A DNA stretch of 64,000 nt from an uncultured Clostridia bacterium (GTDB taxonomy: Bacteria > Bacillota > Clostridia > Christensenellales > Borkfalkiaceae), in NCBI GenBank assembly GCA_947627665.1, contig CANQWX010000005.1, positions 1-64,000 on the forward strand. Direction: 5' to 3'. Shown here piece after piece: positions 1,461-13,802 of the stretch (within the stretch, counting starts at the first letter, position 1; each line of letters opens with the position of its first letter). The position numbers and the translations under genes were made by a program. The notes under the pieces were generated by a model. The model saw only the letters and a list, made by a program, of their open reading frames with translations, did no database searches and was not told the origin of the DNA.

Positions 1461-2231
1461 ATGTCGGATGAAGAGCAAGAGGATGTAATATCCGAAAACG
1501 GAAAACCCGTTCCGCACGGAAAACGGGGCTTCCGCTACGGCTGTTACCTCTTCGTAAAGCGCCTCTTCGACATTCTCTCCTCGGGCCTTTTTTTACTTTT
1601 GTTCGGCTGGCTGATCCTGCTGCTGATCCTGATCAAGTGGCTGGAGGACTTCCACAATCCCATCTATGCGTCCAAGCGGGTGGGGAAAAACGGCAAGATC
1701 TTCCGCTTCTACAAGATCCGCTCGATGTGCCCGCATGCGGAGGAAATGAAACAGAAACTCATCGAAGCGGGGCTGAACGAAGCGGACCCGCCCGCCTTCA
1801 AGATGAAGAACGATCCGCGCATCACGCGGGTGGGGCGGGTGTACCGAAAGCTGTCTTTGGACGAGCTGCCGCAGCTCTGGAACATCTTCATCGGCAATAT
1901 GAGCGTGGTCGGTCCCCGTCCGCCGCTGCCGTCCGAAGTGGCGCAGTATACCGAATACCAAAGACACCGCTTGGATGTAAAAGGCGGCCTGCTCTGCCTT
2001 TGGCAGATCAAAAAAAACCGCAACGCGCTCTCGTTCGACGAATGGGTCGCCCTCGACCTCGAGTACATCGAAAAGCGCAGCCTTTGGCTCGACATCAAGA
2101 TCATATCCCGCGCAGTATTCAATATAGTTAGCGGGGGGGGGGGAGAACATGTAGCTTCCCTTCCCGCAAAAACCGTAGAACCCATATTCTTCCTGCGGAG
2201 GCAAGCAGCTAATGCCGGCGCGGGTGTGTAA
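1461..2231 (+). CDS. Undecaprenyl-phosphate sugar phosphotransferase (first copy)
   Basis: A 256-residue Bac_transf-family (PF02397) enzyme that transfers a sugar-1-phosphate from a nucleotide sugar to undecaprenyl phosphate to start repeat-unit assembly at the inner face of the membrane. Seen: the N-terminal membrane segment after FVKRLFDILSSG (residues about 31-55), the KRVGKNGKIFRFYKIRSM block, LSLDELPQLWNIFIGNMS and VVGPRPPLP. Residues after about 228 come from reading through an 11-G tract; with 10 Gs the protein would end at SGGGENM, closer to the usual family end. The 3' end overlaps the next, paralogous gene by 20 nt. It is the first gene after the operon promoter, with GGAG upstream of the ATG. 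Confidence 0.9.
   Translation: MSDEEQEDVISENGKPVPHGKRGFRYGCYLFVKRLFDILSSGLFLLLFGWLILLLILIKWLEDFHNPIYASKRVGKNGKIFRFYKIRSMCPHAEEMKQKLIEAGLNEADPPAFKMKNDPRITRVGRVYRKLSLDELPQLWNIFIGNMSVVGPRPPLPSEVAQYTEYQRHRLDVKGGLLCLWQIKKNRNALSFDEWVALDLEYIEKRSLWLDIKIISRAVFNIVSGGGGEHVASLPAKTVEPIFFLRRQAANAGAGV
2133..2143 (+). repeat. Homopolymer tract of 11 G
   Basis: Eleven consecutive G residues lie inside the last codons of the first phosphoglycosyl transferase. Loss of one G puts a TAG at 2150-2152 in frame; with 11 the frame stays open to 2231 and overlaps the next gene. This is a candidate slippage site, or an assembly ambiguity. Confidence 0.85.
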
Positions 2232-2885: not shown

Positions 2886-4010
2886 ATGAAAGTTTTAACG
2901 TTTTGCGGCTATTATTTCCCGCATGTAGGGGGAATAGAACAGGTAGCGCGGGATTGTATCAACGCGCTCGCGGGGGAATGCGAGCAACGCGTGATCTGCT
3001 TCAACCACGAAAAGGGGAACGCAACCGATGAGGAGGACGGTGTACAAATTGTCCGCGCGGGGTGCTTTGCAAAAGTCGCTTCCCAGCAGCTTTCCTTCGG
3101 CTTTTACGGACTGTTGAAAAAGCAGTTCCGTGAATTTATGCCCGACGTTGTGCTCTTCCATTTCCCGAATCCCTTTGCGGCGCACTATCTTTTGAAACTT
3201 CTCAAAAAATATCCGCGCTGCAAGCTGGTGGTGTATTGGCATCTCGACATCACAAAGCAAAAACTTCTCGGGAAATTTTTCGGCGGACAGACGAAGCGGC
3301 TTTTACGGCGCGCTTCGAAAGTGGTCGCCACAAGCCCAAATTATATCGAAGGCAGTAAATTCCTGCCCGCCTTCCGCACGAAATGCACCGTCGTGCCCAA
3401 TTGCGCCAACAGCGAACGCATCACCGTTTCCGAAAGCAACCTGAGGGAAGCCGCGCGGATCCGCGAAGAGAACAAGGGAAAGACTATTTTATTTGCGCTC
3501 GGGCGGCATGTTCCCTATAAGGGGCTTGAATACCTGATCCGCGCTTCCAAACTGCTCGGGGACGGCTATCAAATCTTTATCGGAGGGGAGGGGGAGCTTA
3601 CCCCACGCCTCAAAGCGCTCGCCGAAGGTGATGAAAAAGTCGTCTTTTTGGGCAGGATCGGCGACGAAGCGCGCAAGGCGTACACCCTTGCCTGCGACAT
3701 CTTCTGCTTCCCTTCCGTGACAAAAAACGAGGCGTTCGGCCTTGCCCTTGCCGAAGCCATGGCGCTCAAAAAGCCCGCCGTCACCTTTACCATCGAGGGA
3801 AGCGGCGTCAATTATGTATCGCTCAACGGCGTCACGGGGATCGAAGTGGCAAACGCCGACGTTCCCGCCTACGCAAAGGCGATCGAAACGCTCGCGGGTG
3901 ACCCGCCGCTGCGCGAACAATACGGAAACGCCGCCCGCGAGAGGGTGGAAACCCTCTTCAGCGAGCCGGTGTTCCGTGAAAATATCCGCTCGCTCTTCCA
4001 AGAGATCTGA
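2886..4010 (+). CDS. Glycosyltransferase family 4 protein
   Basis: A 374-residue GT-B fold enzyme starting MKVLTFCGYYFPHVGGIEQV, whose HVGGIE loop is typical of GT4 acceptor domains. The C-terminal half carries FALGRHVPYKGLEYLI and the EX7E nucleotide-sugar motif NEAFGLALAEAM. It adds a sugar from a nucleotide donor, retaining its configuration, onto the lipid-linked repeat unit in the cytoplasm. The ORF track begins earlier (2727), inside the previous gene; the ATG at 2886, 5 nt after the upstream stop, gives the family-typical N-terminus. Donor and acceptor unknown. Confidence 0.9.
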   Translation: MKVLTFCGYYFPHVGGIEQVARDCINALAGECEQRVICFNHEKGNATDEEDGVQIVRAGCFAKVASQQLSFGFYGLLKKQFREFMPDVVLFHFPNPFAAHYLLKLLKKYPRCKLVVYWHLDITKQKLLGKFFGGQTKRLLRRASKVVATSPNYIEGSKFLPAFRTKCTVVPNCANSERITVSESNLREAARIREENKGKTILFALGRHVPYKGLEYLIRASKLLGDGYQIFIGGEGELTPRLKALAEGDEKVVFLGRIGDEARKAYTLACDIFCFPSVTKNEAFGLALAEAMALKKPAVTFTIEGSGVNYVSLNGVTGIEVANADVPAYAKAIETLAGDPPLREQYGNAARERVETLFSEPVFRENIRSLFQEI

Positions 4011-4041
4011 GCGCCGGAAATCCATGGATGAGGAAAAAGAG

Positions 4042-5109
4042 ATGAAAACCTTCGGGATCATAATGGCAGGCGGAGGAGGCGAACGCTTCTGGCCGCTGTC
4101 GAGAAGAGAAAGACCCAAGCAGCTACTGAACCTGAGCGGGAAGGAGGTCATGGTCAACGAGGCGATCGACAGATTGACCCATGTCTGCGCGCGCGCGGAT
4201 ATCCGCGTGGTCACGAACGCGCATCAGCTGAAGGCCATGCGCAGCGCCATTTCCAAGCGGCTCAAAGAGGAACAGATCCTCGCCGAGCCTGCTGCAAGAA
4301 ATACCGTTGCCTGCATCGGCTACGCGGCGATGGAGATCGTCAAGAAAAACGGCGGGGACGGCATCATGGTCATCACGCCCTCCGACGCCTACATCAAGGA
4401 CACCGAAACTTTTTCGAAAGTTTTGCAGACGGCGATCGACACCGCGGAGAAAAAGAACTGCCTCGTAACGGTCGGGATCACGCCCACCTTCCCCGCAACG
4501 GGCTACGGCTACATCCACTTCCGCAAGGAGGGCGGCCCCGCGAAGCAGGTGCTCCGCTTTGTGGAGAAGCCCCCGCTCAAACGCGCCAAGAGATATGTGG
4601 CGAGCGAGGATTACGTCTGGAACAGCGGCATGTTCATCTGGAAGGCCTCCGTGATCCTCGAAAAATACAAGAAATTCATCCCCGACGTCTATGAACTGCT
4701 CTGCCGAATCGGCGACGCCATGAATACGCCCGAGGAAAAGACGGTGTTGGAGGAGCTGTATCCTCTGATCCGCTCCGTTTCCATCGACTATGCCATCATG
4801 GAAAAGAGCAAGGATATCTTCGTCCTGCCGAGCGAATTCGGTTGGAGCGACGTCGGTAGCTGGGATATGCTCTCCAAACTCTACGGAGAGGACGCCAACG
4901 GCAACGTGGTCGTCAGCGACTTTATCGGCGAGGATACCCACAATTCCGTCATCTATGCCAAAAAGAAGTTCGTCGCCACCGTCGGGCTGAAAAACGTCAT
5001 CATCGTAGATACGCCCGACGCGCTCCTCGTCTGCGCCAAGGACCGCGCGCAGGAGGTCAAAAAAATCGTAGAAGATCTTCGTACGCAGGGAAGAGAGGAG
5101 CTGCTTTGA
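4042..5109 (+). CDS. manC: Mannose-1-phosphate guanylyltransferase
   Basis: Makes GDP-mannose from mannose-1-phosphate and GTP. A 355-residue protein whose start MKTFGIIMAGGGGERFWPLS.RERPKQ is the nucleotidyltransferase signature; ITPSDAYI, VRFVEKP-like VLRFVEKPPLKRA and WNSGMFIW follow, as in ManC/RfbM enzymes. It lacks the C-terminal isomerase domain of bifunctional enzymes. I chose the ATG at 4042 because GAGG sits 8 nt upstream; the in-frame ATG at 4024 would add MDEEKE. The stop codon overlaps the start of the phosphohexomutase (TGATG), which supplies its substrate, so the two act in one pathway. Confidence 0.92.
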   Translation: MKTFGIIMAGGGGERFWPLSRRERPKQLLNLSGKEVMVNEAIDRLTHVCARADIRVVTNAHQLKAMRSAISKRLKEEQILAEPAARNTVACIGYAAMEIVKKNGGDGIMVITPSDAYIKDTETFSKVLQTAIDTAEKKNCLVTVGITPTFPATGYGYIHFRKEGGPAKQVLRFVEKPPLKRAKRYVASEDYVWNSGMFIWKASVILEKYKKFIPDVYELLCRIGDAMNTPEEKTVLEELYPLIRSVSIDYAIMEKSKDIFVLPSEFGWSDVGSWDMLSKLYGEDANGNVVVSDFIGEDTHNSVIYAKKKFVATVGLKNVIIVDTPDALLVCAKDRAQEVKKIVEDLRTQGREELL

Positions 5110-6821
5110 TGAACCCAGAATACGAGCGCTGGACAAAACCTCCCTTCGACGAGGAGACCCGCCGCGAACTGCTTGCGCTCACCGACGAAAAGGAGATCGA
5201 GGACCGCTTCTACAAAAACCTCTCCTTCGGCACGGGAGGTCTGCGCGGCATCCTCGGCGCGGGCACCAACCGCATGAACCTCTATACCGTCGGGAAAGCT
5301 TCGCAGGGGCTGGCGGATTTCGTCAACGCCCGGACAAAGGACGGCAGCATCGTCATCGCCTATGACAGCCGCCACGGTTCGCGGGAATTTGCTCTCGCCT
5401 CCGCGCTGATCTTTGCGGCGAACGGCATCAAAGCGTATCTTTTCGAACAACTCCGCCCGACCCCCGAGCTATCTTTTGCCGTGCGTCTGTTGCAGGCAAC
5501 GGCGGGGATCGTTATCACGGCAAGCCACAATCCCCCCCAATATAACGGTTACAAGGTGTATTGGTCGGACGGCGGCCAGATCGTCCCGCCCTACGACATG
5601 GGCATCGCCGCCGCGATCGACGCCGTCGGCGACTATACAAACATCAAAAAGATCGGCGAGGAAGAAGCAAAACGGCGCGGTCTGCTCGAGGTGATCGGGC
5701 AAGAAATAGACGACGCCTACATCGCCGCGCTGAAATCGCTCTCGCTGGAACCCGAAGCCATCGCCAAGTGCGCGAGGGAGCTAAAGATCGTCTATACTCC
5801 CTTGAACGGGACGGGGAACCTGCCCGTGCGGCGCATCTTGCGGGAACTGGGCTTCCGCCACGTCTACGTCGTCCCCGAACAGGAGGCGCCCGACGGGGAT
5901 TTCCCCACACTTGCCTACCCGAACCCCGAGGACCCCAAGGCGTTCGAATACGCGCTGCGGCTCGCAAAGGAGAAGGACGCCGACCTCGTGCTCGCCACCG
6001 ATCCCGACGCCGACCGTTTGGGCGTTTACGCCAAGGACACCGTCACGGGGGAGTACATGCCGTTTACGGGCAATATGAGCGGTCTGCTCATCGCCGAATA
6101 CGTTCTCTCGCGCAGGGCTGCGAAGGGACTTCTGCCCAAGGAGGGGAAGGGCGCGCTCGTCACGACCATCGTGTCCTCCAAAATGGCTTACGAGATCGCC
6201 AAGCGGTACGATCTCACGGTCATCGAAGTGCTCACGGGATTTAAGTACATCGGCGAGCAGATCAAACTGCTCGAGGAAACGGGCGAACACACTTATGAGT
6301 TCGGCTATGAGGAGAGCTATGGCTGTCTTGTCGGCACGCACGCGCGGGACAAGGACGCCGTTGCCGCCGTTGCCATGCTCTGCGAAGCCGCGGCGTTTTA
6401 CCGTACGGAAGGGCGCACGCTTTGGGACCAAATGCAGACGATCTACCGCCAATACGGCTATTTCAAAGAGGGGCTGTGCGGCGTAACGCTCGGCGGCGCG
6501 GACGGGGCAAAGCGGATCGACCAAATGATATGCAAGCTCCGCGACTGCCCGCCCGAACAAATCGGCGGGGAAGCGGTAGTCGCCGTGCGCGACTACGAAT
6601 GCGGCCTCCGAAAAGAACTTGGCACGGGGGGCAGCAGCCCCTTGGAGCTGCCGAAGAGCAATGTGCTGTATTTCGAGCTGGAAAACGGCTGGTGCTGCGT
6701 GCGCCCGTCGGGCACGGAGCCGAAGATCAAATTTTACTACGGCGTGAAAGCCGACGACGGCGCCTCGGCGGCAGAAAAACTCGAAGATATCGGTTCGGCG
6801 CTCATGCAACTTGCCGTCTGA
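5109..6821 (+). CDS. Phospho-sugar mutase (phosphomannomutase/phosphoglucomutase)
   Basis: A 570-residue alpha-D-phosphohexomutase that interconverts hexose-6-phosphate and hexose-1-phosphate. The active-site serine loop ITASHNPPQYNGYKVYW, the metal loop ATDPDADRLG, the sugar loop FGYEESYG and the phosphate-binding RPSGTEPKIKFY are all present in order. The length matches the long PgcA/PGM2-like subfamily of Firmicutes, which starts with a segment like YERWTKPPFDEETR. Gene order after manC argues for mannose-1-phosphate supply, but glucose-1-phosphate is equally possible. A TTG three bases earlier (5106) is an alternative start; the ATG overlapping the manC stop is preferred. Confidence 0.92.
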   Translation: MNPEYERWTKPPFDEETRRELLALTDEKEIEDRFYKNLSFGTGGLRGILGAGTNRMNLYTVGKASQGLADFVNARTKDGSIVIAYDSRHGSREFALASALIFAANGIKAYLFEQLRPTPELSFAVRLLQATAGIVITASHNPPQYNGYKVYWSDGGQIVPPYDMGIAAAIDAVGDYTNIKKIGEEEAKRRGLLEVIGQEIDDAYIAALKSLSLEPEAIAKCARELKIVYTPLNGTGNLPVRRILRELGFRHVYVVPEQEAPDGDFPTLAYPNPEDPKAFEYALRLAKEKDADLVLATDPDADRLGVYAKDTVTGEYMPFTGNMSGLLIAEYVLSRRAAKGLLPKEGKGALVTTIVSSKMAYEIAKRYDLTVIEVLTGFKYIGEQIKLLEETGEHTYEFGYEESYGCLVGTHARDKDAVAAVAMLCEAAAFYRTEGRTLWDQMQTIYRQYGYFKEGLCGVTLGGADGAKRIDQMICKLRDCPPEQIGGEAVVAVRDYECGLRKELGTGGSSPLELPKSNVLYFELENGWCCVRPSGTEPKIKFYYGVKADDGASAAEKLEDIGSALMQLAV

Positions 6822-6836
6822 ATATAAGGGCGGGCG

Positions 6837-7910
6837 ATGGCCCGAAAAACGGAGAATACCGTGAAACAGGAAACGAAAAGGGCAACCCAAATTTTTATCA
6901 ATGGGAAATTTTGGGGACAACGCGTTACGGGGGTACAAAGATATGCGCGTGAGATCGTGGCGGAGCTTGACAAGGTCTGCCAAGGTCTTGACGTCACGAT
7001 CGTGCTCCCGAAAGACGCCGCGCAAGTCTGCCCGCCGTATCAAAACATAAAAACGGCCGTTTGCGGCAAAAAGAGTTCTACGCTCTGGGAGCAAACGACC
7101 TTTGCCCGCTATGTGCGCAAACATCATGGCGTTTCGGTCAACCTGTGCAACGCCGCTCCGCTTTTTGCCCCAAAGATCGTGTGCGTCCACGACATGAAGG
7201 CCTTTGCCCATCCCGAATATTTTACCGCAACATTCCGCCTCTGGTATCATATTCTCTTCCGCAACATCATGAAAAAAGCGAAGGCGATCTTGACCGTTTC
7301 CGAATTTTCCAAGCGGGAGATCCTCAAATATTTCCCCAAAATGAAGGCGGAAATCTATGTGGCGGAAAATGCCTGGCAACATTTCGCGCGCACGGAAAAA
7401 AACGATGCGGCGCCCGAAAAATACGGATTGAAGCCGCAGGAGTACTTTTTTGCCCTGAGCAGCCTCGAGCCGAATAAGAATCTCAAGTGGATCATCGGAA
7501 CGGCGCAAAATGCTCCAAACGAGGTATTCGCCGTTGCGGGCGGATTAAACAGCCGCGTCTTTGCGGAAAAGAAAACAGAGCTTCCGCCGAACGTAAAGCT
7601 CCTCGGATATGTGTCGGACGAAGATTCCGCGGGCTTGATGCAAAACTGCAAGGCGTTCCTTTTCGTCACCTTTTACGAGGGTTTCGGGATCCCGCCTTTG
7701 GAAGCGCTCTCGGCGGGGGCGAAGTGCGTCATCGTTTCGGATACGGAAGTCATGCACGAAGTGCTCGGCGAAAACGCCGTTTATGTTTCGCCGCAAGAAT
7801 ATTGCCGCGAACCGGGCGCATTGGCCGTCCCCGTGGGGAACGCCTGCCTCGAAAAATATTCCTGGGAAAGATCGGCGCAAAAGCTGCTTGAAGTATTGAA
7901 AAAAGTATAG
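6837..7910 (+). CDS. Glycosyltransferase family 4 protein
   Basis: A 357-residue GT4-like protein. After a short basic leader it has IFINGKFWGQRVTGVQRYAREIV, seen in mannosyl/rhamnosyl transferases of O-antigen clusters, then LEPNKNLKWII and the EX7E motif EGFGIPPLEAL. It is a paralogue of the product of the gene at 9214 (FILNGRFMEQPFTGIQRFTQEV, EGFGIPPLEAV). It lies 15 nt after the mutase and 8 nt before the polymerase gene. Acts in the cytoplasm on the growing lipid-linked glycan; a mannosyl donor is plausible given manC next door, but this is inference. Confidence 0.88.
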   Translation: MARKTENTVKQETKRATQIFINGKFWGQRVTGVQRYAREIVAELDKVCQGLDVTIVLPKDAAQVCPPYQNIKTAVCGKKSSTLWEQTTFARYVRKHHGVSVNLCNAAPLFAPKIVCVHDMKAFAHPEYFTATFRLWYHILFRNIMKKAKAILTVSEFSKREILKYFPKMKAEIYVAENAWQHFARTEKNDAAPEKYGLKPQEYFFALSSLEPNKNLKWIIGTAQNAPNEVFAVAGGLNSRVFAEKKTELPPNVKLLGYVSDEDSAGLMQNCKAFLFVTFYEGFGIPPLEALSAGAKCVIVSDTEVMHEVLGENAVYVSPQEYCREPGALAVPVGNACLEKYSWERSAQKLLEVLKKV

Positions 7911-7918
7911 AGAAAACG

Positions 7919-9217
7919 ATGGAGATCACATTCCTCGGCTATATCGCCGTTTTGCTGACAATTGTATATCTTGTTCTCCGCAAGCGCGATATGTTCCTCT
8001 ATACCGCCGTCTTTTTTTCGGGCTTCAGCGGAGCAAGCGTATTGAATATCGCAGGGGGTTCCATACAGCCTTCCTTCTTTTTTTTCATGATGTTTTTCCT
8101 CCTGACGTTGCGCGGCAATATGACCGTGCGGCTGGACGGACGGTTGATCCTCTTTTTTGTTTATTGCCTGATCAGTATCGTGTTCCCGCCCATTTTTGCG
8201 CGCACGGGCGTACAGATCATCGACCAAGAGGGCGATCTTGTCCCTTTGCACTTTTCGGCGTCGAACGTCATACACATTGCTTACCTTCTGTTTGACCTTG
8301 TTTTTCTGAACACGCTGCTCCGCTACAAGAACGACGGCAAAATTGCAGCAGGGGCCTTTGCCGCCTACCGCTACGGCTTCTATGCCGTGGTGTCGGTCTG
8401 TATTTATCAGATGCTCGCATTCCGTTTCAACCTGCCCTTCGACCGGATCTTCCGCACGGGAGTGCACGGAAATATCCAGGGCACACGGCTCTACGGGCCT
8501 TGCGACGAAGCCTCCATGCTTTGTTATTATCTCGTTCCGTCCATTCTGTTCTGCCTGCAAACCAAGCGCTCTCTTCCGAGCGTGTGTTTCGCATTCCTCG
8601 GGATCCTCGTCGGCGTCCTTTCGGAATCCTCCACATTCCTTGTCGGCATGGCGCTTTTGATCGTTTTGGCGATCCCCGCGTGCGTGCGTTTTCTGTCTGC
8701 GCCGCATTCGGTGAAGGTGTGGCGGGCGATCGCAATCGGGCTGCTTTGTTTGCTTTTCGTCCTCGTCCTTATGGCGGGACGGTTGTCGAGGCTGGTGGAG
8801 CTATTTCTTGAGAAACTCGCAAGGCAAAACGTTTCGGGAGAGGAGCGTTCGTCCACGATGCTGACCTTGATCGGCGTGGGGCTGAGGTTTCCGCTCGGGG
8901 TGGGCTTCGGCAGCGCACGCAGCGCAGACCTATTCTCGAGCTGGCTGTGCAATGTCGGGATCGTCGGCATGGCGATCTTCTTGGTATATGTGATACATTA
9001 CGCGAGAAGCGCATACAAAAACGGATATTTTTCAAGAGCGCTGCCGTTTTTGGTGACGCTCGTGCTGATGTTCATTTCCGTCCCCGAACCCTATAATTTA
9101 TTTGTTTGGTTTTTACTCTTTTACGGTTCTTGCTATATCGAAAGCTTTTCCATGCAAACGAACTGGTTACCCGAAATATCAACGAAACGGCAATGCCTTG
9201 TCAAACGAACTTTATGA
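7919..9217 (+). CDS. Wzy-like polysaccharide polymerase, membrane protein
   Basis: A 432-residue polytopic membrane protein with about ten to twelve hydrophobic segments, from the N-terminal ITFLGYIAVLLTIVYLVL to the C-terminal LFVWFLLFYGSCYIESF, and a long loop before position 210. The PLGVGFGSA segment in the second half resembles the conserved region of O-antigen ligase/polymerase (Wzy/WaaL) proteins. It would polymerise lipid-linked repeat units on the outer face of the membrane after flipping. These proteins share little sequence, so the call rests on topology and position in the cluster. Its TGA overlaps the next ATG. Confidence 0.7.
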   Translation: MEITFLGYIAVLLTIVYLVLRKRDMFLYTAVFFSGFSGASVLNIAGGSIQPSFFFFMMFFLLTLRGNMTVRLDGRLILFFVYCLISIVFPPIFARTGVQIIDQEGDLVPLHFSASNVIHIAYLLFDLVFLNTLLRYKNDGKIAAGAFAAYRYGFYAVVSVCIYQMLAFRFNLPFDRIFRTGVHGNIQGTRLYGPCDEASMLCYYLVPSILFCLQTKRSLPSVCFAFLGILVGVLSESSTFLVGMALLIVLAIPACVRFLSAPHSVKVWRAIAIGLLCLLFVLVLMAGRLSRLVELFLEKLARQNVSGEERSSTMLTLIGVGLRFPLGVGFGSARSADLFSSWLCNVGIVGMAIFLVYVIHYARSAYKNGYFSRALPFLVTLVLMFISVPEPYNLFVWFLLFYGSCYIESFSMQTNWLPEISTKRQCLVKRTL

Positions 9218-10254
9218 AAACAGAAAATAATACAATGAAATTCATTCTCAACGGCCGGTTTATGGAACAACCGTTTACCGGCATACAGCGGTTTACCCAA
9301 GAGGTCTTAAAACAATTTTCTCTGATGAAAAACCTGCAAGTGTATGTCGCCATGCCGCCGATTTCAAAATTAAGTGCGCCGAAGATAATTTCCGAAAATA
9401 TCGAATATATCACGGTGGGGAAACATACAGGAACGCGGTGGGAGCAATCCGATCTCCCCAAATTCTGTAAGGAACAAAATTTGCCGCTCCTATGCACGGG
9501 AAACAACGCCCCGATCCTGTACCGCTCTTTTGTCGTTCTCCATGATGTCCTTTGGCTCGACATGAAGCAATGCGCGCCGAAAAAATCTTGGGTGCGCAAG
9601 TCCAGACTCATGATCCGTAGCTTCATCTATCGCAGTCACAAGGTCTTTACCGTGTCGCACTTTTCAGCGGAACGCATTCATAGTCTTTTCCCCAAGCGGA
9701 AGGAGTTGCCAACGGTCGTTTACAACGGCATGGAGCATACCGCAGAATGGAAAGAAACGCCCGTTGAGGGACTTCCGCAAACATTTTATCTCTCGGTCGG
9801 CTCGGTGTACGCGCACAAAAATTTCAAGTTCGTGCTCATGCTTGCCAAACAACACCCCGAACTTTCCTTTGTCATTGCGGGCAATCAAAACATGGAATAT
9901 GATAAGTTCCTCGCCGAAAATAACATCACAAACTGCTATTTTACGGGCTATATGAACGACGGGCAGCTCGCCTATCTATACCATCGTTGCGAGGGCTTTA
10001 TCCTGCCGTCGCTCTATGAAGGATTCGGGATCCCGCCGTTGGAAGCGGTCGCCTGCGGTTGCCGCAAGATCTTTCTCTCCGACATCCCCGTTTTTCACGA
10101 GATTTACGGCGACAGCGCCATATACTTCGACCCGCACGGAGCCGGTGTTCCTTTGGAATGCGCACCGATGAGCGAACAAAGTGCTCAAGCGCTCCTTAAA
10201 AAATACTCATGGAAAAAGACGGCTGAAAAAATATTACAAGGTATGCAGATATGA
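9214..10254 (+). CDS. Glycosyltransferase family 4 protein
   Basis: A 346-residue paralogue of the transferase at 6837, with NGRFMEQPFTGIQRFTQEVL near the N-terminus, the middle SVGSVYAHKNFKFVL block and EX7E motif EGFGIPPLEAVACG. The ORF track starts at 9106, inside the polymerase gene; the ATG at 9214 makes an ATGA overlap with the polymerase stop and gives the same N-terminal layout as the paralogue. An ATG at 9235 (MKFILNG) is a second possibility. Base composition is clearly more AT-rich than that of the genes before 9100, suggesting separate origin. Confidence 0.88.
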   Translation: MKTENNTMKFILNGRFMEQPFTGIQRFTQEVLKQFSLMKNLQVYVAMPPISKLSAPKIISENIEYITVGKHTGTRWEQSDLPKFCKEQNLPLLCTGNNAPILYRSFVVLHDVLWLDMKQCAPKKSWVRKSRLMIRSFIYRSHKVFTVSHFSAERIHSLFPKRKELPTVVYNGMEHTAEWKETPVEGLPQTFYLSVGSVYAHKNFKFVLMLAKQHPELSFVIAGNQNMEYDKFLAENNITNCYFTGYMNDGQLAYLYHRCEGFILPSLYEGFGIPPLEAVACGCRKIFLSDIPVFHEIYGDSAIYFDPHGAGVPLECAPMSEQSAQALLKKYSWKKTAEKILQGMQI

Positions 10255-11129
10255 ATTTCAATGTTTGTTACGTTTTTGATAAAGACTACATCGGCCAGTT
10301 TAAGGTTTCGATTTATTCTTTGATTGTGAACAACCGCCAAGAAACGATTATGGCTCACCTATTGACTTATAGCCTTGGCCAAGACGATCGGGAAAACATC
10401 GCTTCTTTTTTGCAAAAAATGGGCGTTTCTTGCAAATTTTACGAAATAGACGAGGCTTGCTTCAAAAATCTACCGAAAATGCGGGCTTCGTCTTATGCTT
10501 GTTACTATAAATTACTTATTCCCGACTATCTGAAAGACCAAGAACGAGTCCTTTTCCTCGATTGCGACATTATTGTCCGCAAACCGATTCATGAGTTTTT
10601 CTTTATGCAAACCGACAAGCCGCTTACGGCTGTTGCGGATTCTTTTGTCGAAAAAACAGTGCCCGACCATGTCGCAAACATCGCCGGACCGGGAAGCTCT
10701 TATTTCAATTCGGGGGTCATGCTATTCGATTTTACAAAAGCCGATCATCCCTGCCTTGAAGAAATGCTTCATTATGGCGGAGTGCAATTTTCATCTTTGA
10801 TGTATCACGACCAAGATATTTTGAATCACTTCTACCAAAATCGCGTCTGCTTTATTAACGATAAATATAACTATATTACGAATTTGAATAAAATCGGTCA
10901 AATACTTACAGATAGAAGACGCCAGAAAATCATTCACTATGCGGGTACAAAACCTTGGGACCCTACATACAAGAAGAAATTCTATTCTTTATATGTAAAA
11001 TATTACAACGCATGTAAACAAGTAACGCAAGTAGATTATTTGAAAAAGAGAAAGCCCCTCGCAGTTCTTTTTTTCTCCTATTTGAAAAGCAAAGCAAGCA
11101 AAGAATCATCAGAAACGAATCGGAGATAA
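10251..11129 (+). CDS. Glycosyltransferase family 8 protein
   Basis: A 292-residue GT-A enzyme: MNFNVCYVFDKDYIGQFKVSIYSL at the start, then SYACYYKLLIPDYL and the metal-binding DXD motif in VLFLDCDIIVRKP, followed by YFNSGVMLFD and DQDILNHFY, as in GT8 galactosyl/glucosyltransferases such as LgtC-like proteins. It transfers a hexose with retention of configuration. The start overlaps the previous stop (ATGA). It is the most AT-rich gene of the cluster, probably acquired separately from the housekeeping part of the operon. Confidence 0.9.
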   Translation: MNFNVCYVFDKDYIGQFKVSIYSLIVNNRQETIMAHLLTYSLGQDDRENIASFLQKMGVSCKFYEIDEACFKNLPKMRASSYACYYKLLIPDYLKDQERVLFLDCDIIVRKPIHEFFFMQTDKPLTAVADSFVEKTVPDHVANIAGPGSSYFNSGVMLFDFTKADHPCLEEMLHYGGVQFSSLMYHDQDILNHFYQNRVCFINDKYNYITNLNKIGQILTDRRRQKIIHYAGTKPWDPTYKKKFYSLYVKYYNACKQVTQVDYLKKRKPLAVLFFSYLKSKASKESSETNRR

Positions 11130-11134
11130 GATAA

Positions 11135-12703
11135 TTGGATAAAAAGAAGGGTTTCAAAAACGTCATCGTTTCCGTGGTGTTCCGCGTACTGCTCCTCGTG
11201 GCGACCTTGCTCACGCGGCGCTTTTTGATACAGTTCGTTGGAAATGACGTCAACGGCCTCAATTCCCTCTATACAAGCATTCTCGGCTTCCTCGCCGTGG
11301 CGGAACTCGGCGTGGGTAGCGCCATCACCTTCTGCATGTACAAGCCCATCGTGGAGGGGGACGACAAAAAAGTCGCCGCGCTCTATTGCCTTTTCAAACG
11401 GCTCTATCTCATCATCGGCGGGATCATTCTCCTCGGCGGATGCGTCCTGATGCCTTTCCTCAAATTCTTCGCCAAGGATTATGCCGAACTCGACGTTGAT
11501 CTCTATCTCACCTTTGCGCTTTCGCTCGCGGCGGTGCTGATCACCTACCTTTTCAGCGCTAAGACGTCGCTCATCAACGCCTACAAAAATAATTATATCT
11601 CTACCGCCATCACCTCCTCGGGACAGCTCCTTGCCTGCGGTCTGCAGATCCTTGTGCTCTTCCTCACACGATCCTTTGTGTGGTACCTCGTGTGTGCGAT
11701 CGCAGCCGCTTTGGCACAGTGGGCGGTGACGGAGATCGTGACCCGCAAGATGTACGGCGGCATTCTCGCCCTCAAAGAAAAGATCGATCCCGAAACGAAA
11801 GGGGAGGTCGTCAAGAACGTCAAGGCGATGTTCATGCACAAGATCGGCGGGGTCCTCGTCAACACCGCAGACAGCGTGATCATCTCTGCTTTCCTCGGCG
11901 TGGCTCTCCTCGGGAAATATTCCAACTACATCGTCATCGCCTCGGCGCTGTCAAGCACGATCGCGCTCTGCTTTACGCCGCTCACCTCGATCATCGGGCA
12001 CCTGTATGTGGAGGAGAGCGGCGAATCGTTGCGCAAATATCTGCATTTCTTCCATACTTTCAATTTTGTACTCGGCGCGATCTTCTTCCTCGGCTACTAC
12101 GCCATCATTGACGATCTCGTCACCATCTTCTTCGACAGCGCCATGACGGGCGGGCTGCTCTTCGGCCGATGGGTGACCTTCGTCATCACCCTCAATTATT
12201 TTATCCAATTCATGCGGCAGGCGACCATGCTTTTCCGCGACGCCACGGGCACCTTTTATTACGATCGCTATAAGCCGCTCGTAGAGGGGACCGTCAATAT
12301 CGCGCTCTCCATCGCCTTTGTCTACCTCTTCGGGCTGATCGACGAGGAGTTCAGCGTTGTGGGCGTGATCGCGGCGACCATTCTCACCAATCTCTTTATC
12401 TGCCACATCGTAGAACCGCACGTCCTTTATAAGCATGCGATCCACTACACGCCCAAGTATTACTATATCAAAAATTACTTTTACATCGCGCTGTTCGCGG
12501 CTGCGCTCGTCGGACTGCATTTCTGCCATGTTTCCATGGAGAGCCGCTTCAACGAATTGCTCGTGAACGGCTGCATCGCGGTCGCGGTGTCGCTCGTGCC
12601 CATCCTCATCGCCGTGCTCACGGACGGGGATTTCCGCCATCACGTCAAAGCGCTCCGCGAGCGCTTCCGCCAAAAACATCGCAAACCGATCAAGGAGGAT
12701 TGA
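11135..12703 (+). CDS. Wzx-like polysaccharide flippase
   Basis: A 522-residue MOP-superfamily transporter with about 12-14 hydrophobic helices, starting KGFKNVIVSVVFRVLLLVATLLTRRFLIQFVGNDVNGLN, where the FVG...NGLNSLY loop is typical of Wzx/RfbX proteins. It would move undecaprenyl-linked repeat units across the membrane. The start is a TTG at 11135, with GGAG 11 nt upstream; the first in-frame ATG is much later. GC content returns to the high level of the operon here. It overlaps nothing and ends two bases before glf. Confidence 0.87.
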   Translation: MDKKKGFKNVIVSVVFRVLLLVATLLTRRFLIQFVGNDVNGLNSLYTSILGFLAVAELGVGSAITFCMYKPIVEGDDKKVAALYCLFKRLYLIIGGIILLGGCVLMPFLKFFAKDYAELDVDLYLTFALSLAAVLITYLFSAKTSLINAYKNNYISTAITSSGQLLACGLQILVLFLTRSFVWYLVCAIAAALAQWAVTEIVTRKMYGGILALKEKIDPETKGEVVKNVKAMFMHKIGGVLVNTADSVIISAFLGVALLGKYSNYIVIASALSSTIALCFTPLTSIIGHLYVEESGESLRKYLHFFHTFNFVLGAIFFLGYYAIIDDLVTIFFDSAMTGGLLFGRWVTFVITLNYFIQFMRQATMLFRDATGTFYYDRYKPLVEGTVNIALSIAFVYLFGLIDEEFSVVGVIAATILTNLFICHIVEPHVLYKHAIHYTPKYYYIKNYFYIALFAAALVGLHFCHVSMESRFNELLVNGCIAVAVSLVPILIAVLTDGDFRHHVKALRERFRQKHRKPIKED

Positions 12704-12704
12704 T

Positions 12705-13802
12705 ATGTACGACTATCTCATTGTAGGAAGCGGGCTTTATGGCTCCGTATGCGCATTCGAGCTGACAAAACGGGGCAAAACTTGCCTTGTGCTGGAAAAA
12801 CGCTCCCATATCGGCGGAAACGTCTATACCGAAAACATCGGGGGCGTCAACGTCCACAAGTACGGCGCGCACATCTTCCACACCTCCGATAAGGCGATCT
12901 GGGACTATGTGAATACCTTTGCGGAATTCAACAACTATATCAACTCGCCCGTGGCGCGCTATCGGGACGAATGCTACAATCTGCCCTTCAATATGAACAC
13001 CTTCACCAAGCTTTGGCGGGATGTCTTTACGCCCGAGGAGGCGCGCAAGCGGCTCGAAGAAGAGCGGAAGAGCGTATATGTCGCCGAGCCGAAAAACCTC
13101 GAGGAACAGGCGCTCAATCTCGTCGGAAAGACGATCTACGAAAAACTCATCAAGGGCTATACCGAAAAGCAGTGGGGCAGGCCCTGCCGCGAACTGCCCG
13201 CTTTCATCATCAAGCGCCTGCCGCTGAGGTACACGTTCGACAACAACTACTTCAACGACCGCTACCAAGGGATCCCGATCGGCGGCTACACGCAGATCGT
13301 CGAAAAGATGCTCGGCGGCGTTGAAGTGCGGCTCGGGTGCGACTTCCTTGCGGATAAGGAAAAGTATGCCGCGCTCGCAAAGACAGTCATTTACACGGGC
13401 GCGATCGACGCCTACTTCTGCTATAAACTCGGCGCGCTCGAATACCGCTCGGTGCGCTTCGAAACGGAAACGCTGGATACGCCCAATTACCAGGGCAACG
13501 CCGTCGTCAATTACACCGCCGCCGACGTGCCTTATACACGCGTCATCGAGCACAAACACTTTGAGTTCGGCACGCAGCCGCAGACGGTCATCTCGCGGGA
13601 GTATTCCTCGGCGTGGCGGCAGGGGGACGAGCCATACTATCCCGTGAACGACGAGCGGAACAATGCGCTCTACGCGCAGTACCAGGCGCTTGCGGCGCAG
13701 GAGAAAAACGTGCTCTTCGGCGGGCGGCTGGGGCAATATCGGTATTTCGATATGGACGACGTGATCGACGGCGCGCTGAAAGCGGTGCGTTCGCTCGGCT
13801 GA
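12705..13802 (+). CDS. glf: UDP-galactopyranose mutase
   Basis: Converts UDP-galactopyranose to UDP-galactofuranose using reduced FAD. A 365-residue protein beginning YDYLIVGSGLYGSVCAFEL, the dinucleotide-binding loop, followed by VLEKRSHIGGNVYTE and VHKYGAHIFHT, and later YTEKQWGRPC and RLPLRYTFDNNYFNDRYQGIP; all are family hallmarks. Length is normal. An AAGGAGGAT site precedes the ATG. It implies that the surface polymer contains galactofuranose, or that the enzyme acts on a related UDP-sugar. Confidence 0.96.
   Translation: MYDYLIVGSGLYGSVCAFELTKRGKTCLVLEKRSHIGGNVYTENIGGVNVHKYGAHIFHTSDKAIWDYVNTFAEFNNYINSPVARYRDECYNLPFNMNTFTKLWRDVFTPEEARKRLEEERKSVYVAEPKNLEEQALNLVGKTIYEKLIKGYTEKQWGRPCRELPAFIIKRLPLRYTFDNNYFNDRYQGIPIGGYTQIVEKMLGGVEVRLGCDFLADKEKYAALAKTVIYTGAIDAYFCYKLGALEYRSVRFETETLDTPNYQGNAVVNYTAADVPYTRVIEHKHFEFGTQPQTVISREYSSAWRQGDEPYYPVNDERNNALYAQYQALAAQEKNVLFGGRLGQYRYFDMDDVIDGALKAVRSLG

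Follow-up and report, generated by a model that had tools for sequence, protein, structure and literature searches.

Close to the beginning of a 64,000-nt stretch of DNA from an uncultured Clostridia bacterium (this whole stretch is the window referred to below), two phosphoglycosyl transferase genes, PGT1 and PGT2, follow one another, and a run of 11 Gs lies at the end of the first. The question raised by this locus is whether the length of the run sets the C-terminus of PGT1 and its coupling to PGT2, as the initial annotation had proposed. We read the run directly in the window at 2133-2143, where that annotation had placed it (this and all other features lie on the forward strand unless noted), and found that it covers glycine codons 225-228 of PGT1. 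It is the longest G run of the 1.8-Mb host genome. The counts per length, derived from overlapping pattern matches over the genome, were 66 runs of 7 Gs, 6 of 8, one of 9, none of 10 and one of 11. Since the decay of run length in this genome predicts about 0.01-0.04 runs of at least 11 Gs (an estimate), compared with the one observed, the tract is an outlier and more than a chance occurrence.

PGT1 (1461-2231; 256 aa in the assembled 11-G frame) is a monotopic phosphoglycosyl transferase of the Bac_transf family (PF02397, 2.3e-58), and PGT2 (2212-2880; 222 aa; PF02397, 3.3e-57) is about 45% identical to it. The Bac_transf domain is full-length in both proteins, which score 197 and 193 bits, respectively, against a gathering cut-off of 27. 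In PGT1 the match extends over residues 33-223 (profile positions 1-178 of 179) and ends ahead of the tract; PGT1 also partially matches TIGR03025. No WcaJ, WbaP or EpsZ equivalog call was obtained for PGT1 or PGT2, the NCBIfam scores all being under the curated cut-offs. Because the catalytic domain of PGT1 is complete 5' of the tract, the tract length cannot turn PGT1 off, and since both catalytic domains are whole at every length, the tract does not work as an on/off switch for PGT1. The layout is as expected for C-terminal phase variation, in which a long homopolymer lies behind the functional domain, close to where the gene ends.

The two genes head a polysaccharide operon and are transcribed together. 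The only strong promoter, TTGACA-17 nt-TATAAT at 1312-1340, agrees with the consensus at 12 of 12 positions, and PGT1 orthologues have similar promoters upstream. A promoter-like site was looked for in the interval between PGT1 and PGT2 and none was found. The ribosome binding site of PGT2, GGAGG at 2197-2201, lies ten bases 5' of its start codon within a conserved block, TTCCTGCGGAGGC. The rest of the operon (2886-13802) encodes a GT4, a ManC-like GMP transferase, a phosphomannomutase-like protein, two more GT4-like proteins, a GT8, a putative polymerase and flippase, and a UDP-galactopyranose mutase; the polymerase and flippase gave no family match and were identified from their translations. 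The operon is adjoined by a gene pair for a ParE-like toxin (PF05016) and a Phd/YefM-like antitoxin (PF02604), at 537-1107 on the reverse strand.

Translating the junction at alternative G counts, we found that the tract length picks one of three PGT1 ends. With 11 Gs, as assembled, and also with 8 or 14, PGT1 stops at TAA 2229-2231 and overlaps PGT2, which starts at 2212, by 20 nt, as the initial annotation had stated. With 10 or 13 Gs the protein has a short end, ..SGGGENM, about 57 nt 5' of PGT2. The annotation had correctly predicted this end and the loss of the overlap for 10 Gs; its stop codon, however, is the TAG at 2152-2154 and not at 2150-2152. A third frame had escaped notice: with 9 or 12 Gs PGT1 ends in ..ILPAEASS at TAA 2210-2212, which lies within TAATG and overlaps the PGT2 start codon. 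Beyond residue 224, PGT1 has 6 residues at 10 Gs, 26 at 12 Gs and 32 at 11 Gs, and all of these ends are open. The proposal that the tract sets both the PGT1 end and the coupling to PGT2 is thus supported in part: the two ends it named are as predicted, a third has to be added, and an influence on PGT2 would follow if the genes are coupled. The overlap of stop and start expected of translationally coupled genes is present in that third frame of the window and in the 8-G frame of a related species described below, where it takes the form ATGA. Because PGT2 has its own binding site, coupling may nevertheless matter little.

The same PGT1-PGT2 pair occurs in a second species, in a metagenome-assembled genome (MAG) from rabbit gut (G100; contig CANQOX010000052.1), with 8 Gs at the equivalent place. 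Although the two PGT1 genes are only 74% identical in DNA, the block TTCAATAT directly 5' of the tract (2118-2125, codons F-N-I) is identical in both, while the 36 nt ahead of it are only 64% identical. Two further blocks are common to the two junctions, A.AA.ATGTA. 3' of the tract and TTCCTGCGGAGGC at the PGT2 binding site; between the shared blocks the sequences have diverged and differ in length. The 12 nt 3' of the tract differ at 3 sites, each a third codon position when read in the short frame, for which the probability by chance is about 1 in 27, and conservation after the tract ends at the short-frame stop codon (TAA in G100, where the equivalent end is ..GGDNM). The long-frame tails lack conservation beyond the ribosome binding site. 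Given this pattern of third-position changes, ..G(E/D)NM is probably the end on which selection acted, in line with the original suggestion that the short end is close to the usual one of the family. Neither assembly is in the short frame: the 11 Gs of the window give the overlap frame and the 8 Gs of G100 the coupled one, in which ATGA falls on the start of PGT2.

About 30 solitary PGT1 orthologues, with no adjacent PGT2, lack the tract and end in FDRSGE, FDHSGE or near variants. An extended tail in a protein whose gene is free of the tract, which according to the initial annotation would speak against its proposal, was looked for among the PGT1 orthologues and not found. The tract with its right flank, GGGGGGGANAAYATGTAR, is present only in the window and G100 among 103 genomes of the genus. 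In a tree of the PGT domain, G100 PGT1 grouped with the protein of another genome (G031) and not with PGT1 of the window, a placement that bootstrapping left unsettled. Because the two PGT1 proteins do not group together, the junction would be either ancestral and often lost or exchanged between species.

A tandem pair of another kind of PGT, found in two further species (G099 and G090), has 9 and 8 Gs, respectively, at the end of its first gene, whereas in its single-copy relatives (G008 and G006) the 450 nt behind the domain are free of runs of at least 7 Gs. A run of at least 8 Gs at the gene end was present in the first genes of 4 of 4 PGT pairs, which represent only two independent lineages, and in 1 of 155 single PGTs (Fisher 2e-7). 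Counted by lineage, the association has a probability of about 2e-4, and of about 0.013 when the discovery lineage is left out (one of one). All frames of the G099/G090 pair stop 73-115 nt ahead of the second PGT. What the two kinds of pair have in common is thus a switch of the tail only, coupling being special to the pair of the window type. Together, the four species have 11, 8, 9 and 8 Gs and are assembled in different frames (overlap in the window, coupled in G100, short in G099 and another in G090), which is what a variable tract would give. In three genomes a single PGT is followed, at a distance of about 265 nt, by a run of 8-9 Gs (L030 in G008, L031 in G006 and L357 in G117); those of G008 and G006 end in a GTG that could be the start codon of the next gene, as if the run were part of that gene's ribosome binding site.

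Established for the tract, then, are its anatomy and frames, its conservation together with its flanks in a second species and its recurrence at another PGT pair. Because two different PGT pairs in related species carry such a run, we read it as a probable mutable switch of the PGT1 end and perhaps of PGT2 output. Our preferred, though tentative, explanation is that C-terminal phase variation by slippage is joined here to a frame-dependent coupling of two initiating transferases. The tract would be a contingency site prone to slippage, situated where the genes of two co-transcribed initiating enzymes meet, and replication slippage would create a mixed population of tract lengths. Each length would place the end of PGT1 at the short stop (10 or 13 Gs), on the PGT2 start (9 or 12 Gs) or 20 nt into PGT2 (11 Gs). 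This would probably change the tail of PGT1 and, if expression responds, the delivery of ribosomes to PGT2, which could alter the proportion of the two enzymes that start the surface polymer and, through it, the polymer itself.

It is possible, if rather unlikely, that the tract is simply a tolerated low-complexity tail, which mutates under no selection while the PGT1 end and the coupling are of no importance. The assembled frames do differ across species, the long-frame tails are not conserved and both enzymes are intact in every frame, all of which would be expected of such a tail. It would not explain why the tract has held its position in two species despite the divergence of PGT1, why it recurs at an unrelated PGT pair while being nearly absent from single PGTs, or why the three post-tract changes all preserve the short frame. 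In another account the assembled length is off by one and the true gene has 10 Gs, ends in GENM like its relatives and is invariant. Homopolymers are prone to length errors in sequencing, the host genome is a fragmented MAG and selection seems to have acted on the short frame; the assembled tract may be wrong by one base, and to this extent the artefact considered in the initial annotation stays in play. As an explanation of the locus, an invariant 10-G gene is nonetheless quite unlikely: G100, with 8 instead of 9 Gs, does not fall in the short frame either and would need a second error, as would G090, and at 10 Gs the tract would still be the longest of the genome. The junction itself is no assembly accident, since it is also present in the independent MAG of a second species.

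Two further accounts would assign the tract a role at the level of RNA. If transcription slipped, or ribosomes shifted frame, on the G run, a single DNA length could yield all three products; the sequence would permit this, as the long run has a stop in one frame and a predicted hairpin behind it. The tract is itself one arm of that hairpin, however, unlike a downstream stimulator, and its length differs between species, and we regard such a mechanism as improbable. The hairpin could instead be the functional element, with the tract as a regulatory arm that pairs with the pyrimidine-rich stretch at 2155-2167 and tunes PGT2 translation. The predicted structure has 13 bp around the short stop (z -2.27), and a shorter and weaker one is predicted in G100 (z -1.13). 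The z value of only -1.1 in G100, the lack of covariation support for the predicted hairpin, the ability of a G run to pair with nearly any pyrimidine run and the absence of such a hairpin from G099 and G090 make this role very improbable.

Several other readings were considered and set aside. The tract is not a promoter spacer of the PorA type, there being no -35/-10 pair at it, and no TTGAC-G8-TANAAT sites were found in the window's own genome. A two-colour poly-G sequencing artefact or a chimeric join was rejected, as the tract is internal and the junction is seen again in the independent MAG; a mobile or repeated element was likewise rejected on the distribution of GGGGGGGANAAYATGTAR given above. 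Tandem duplication is a poor fit as the cause of the tract, given the identity of only about 45% between PGT1 and PGT2 and their position in separate clades with single-copy relatives.

Both PGT pairs belong to a genus with long G tracts in promoter spacers and in coding genes. The pattern TTGAC..G8+..TANAAT gave 261 matches (a total that counts a few sites with overlapping -10 boxes twice) in 78 of 103 genomes of the genus, and its reversed control gave none. In an even sample of the order it was found in 72 of 396 genomes (30 of 142 genera), and in a sample of the class in 9 of 391, at least 4 of them from the same order; the control was again 0 in both samples. At the same loci, which were not sampled randomly, the first gene encoded a predicted lipoprotein, as called by a simple pattern rule, behind 62 of 98 G-tract promoters compared with 6 of 71 ordinary promoters (p 1e-13). 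A spacer of 17 nt was present in 117 of 139 ordinary promoters but in only 8 of 116 G-tract promoters, whose spacers peak at 15-16 and 19-20 nt. Example loci are L096, L100, L122, L132, L145, L152, L303-L309 and L440-L499. Across the genus, these poly-G spacers look like a lineage-wide promoter-spacing contingency system, and the promoters resemble the PorA type of promoter switching (PMC3639595). A limited literature search by title and abstract found no description of a G-tract promoter system in this group.

What is seemingly the same G-tract promoter has spacers with 12 and 13 Gs in two species (L145 in G007 and L152 in G006). One genome, G002, contains 27 pattern matches with nearly identical promoters (L303-L306), and those that were read precede a family of related large lipoproteins (MNTKKWLALGLSVALA..). 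Intragenic runs of 11-16 Gs with a frame change at the run were seen at L117 (G106), L121 (G020), L114 (G101), L108 (G012) and L151 (G123). One of the genes has a DNA methylase half (PF01555), another codes for a secreted protein interrupted directly behind its signal peptide and a third for a surface-like protein, while a pilin-like protein is affected in two species. Very long G runs located exactly at contig ends (L101, L102, L111, L130, L131 and L148) are probably sequencing artefacts of the MAGs. Long G tracts in this lineage are either common devices or common accidents.

A broader proposal, which we consider doubtful, is that the PGT1 tract acts as a stochastic selector of the polymer-starting transferase. 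Slippage would move cells between PGT1-dominated and PGT1-plus-PGT2 states through stop-start coupling, as part of a lineage-wide poly-G contingency system of Christensenellales-type gut Clostridia that elsewhere acts through lipoprotein promoter spacers. If the switch at the transferase pair is real, an uncultured gut commensal would change the first sugar, or the amount, of its surface polymer by slippage between two initiating enzymes; no report of phase-variable polymer initiation at such transferases was found in a limited literature search. The wider context weighs more, with hundreds of poly-G tracts between promoter boxes in the genus and the order, mostly 5' of lipoprotein genes. Contingency loci have been studied chiefly in pathogens, and if these tracts function as such they would be a main means of regulation in common gut Clostridia.

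Among known systems, the Bac_transf transferases (PF02397) of the EpsZ, WbaP and WcaJ families share with PGT1 and PGT2 the complete catalytic domain; here two of them stand in tandem, joined by a G tract, and score below the curated cut-offs of those families. The porA promoter of Neisseria meningitidis (PMC3639595) has a hypermutable poly-G that resembles the promoter-spacer tracts elsewhere in the genus, whereas the PGT1 tract lies outside a promoter. In the pilus locus of Bifidobacterium breve (PMC9187656) a G tract also lies within a gene of a gut commensal and undergoes replication slippage, as we infer for PGT1. That system, however, is an on/off switch of the pilus documented by deep sequencing, while the domain of PGT1 is complete in all frames and our case is built on sequence comparison. 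In Helicobacter canadensis, C-terminal phase variation was described and reads showed length variation (PMC2823697). There, too, a long poly-G near the 3' end of a gene alters only the end of the protein, and in one case could merge two neighbouring genes. The window differs in that slippage is deduced from the assembled sequence, the host is a member of the Clostridia, and the tract joins two paralogous initiating transferases, with one of its three stops falling on the start codon of the next gene.
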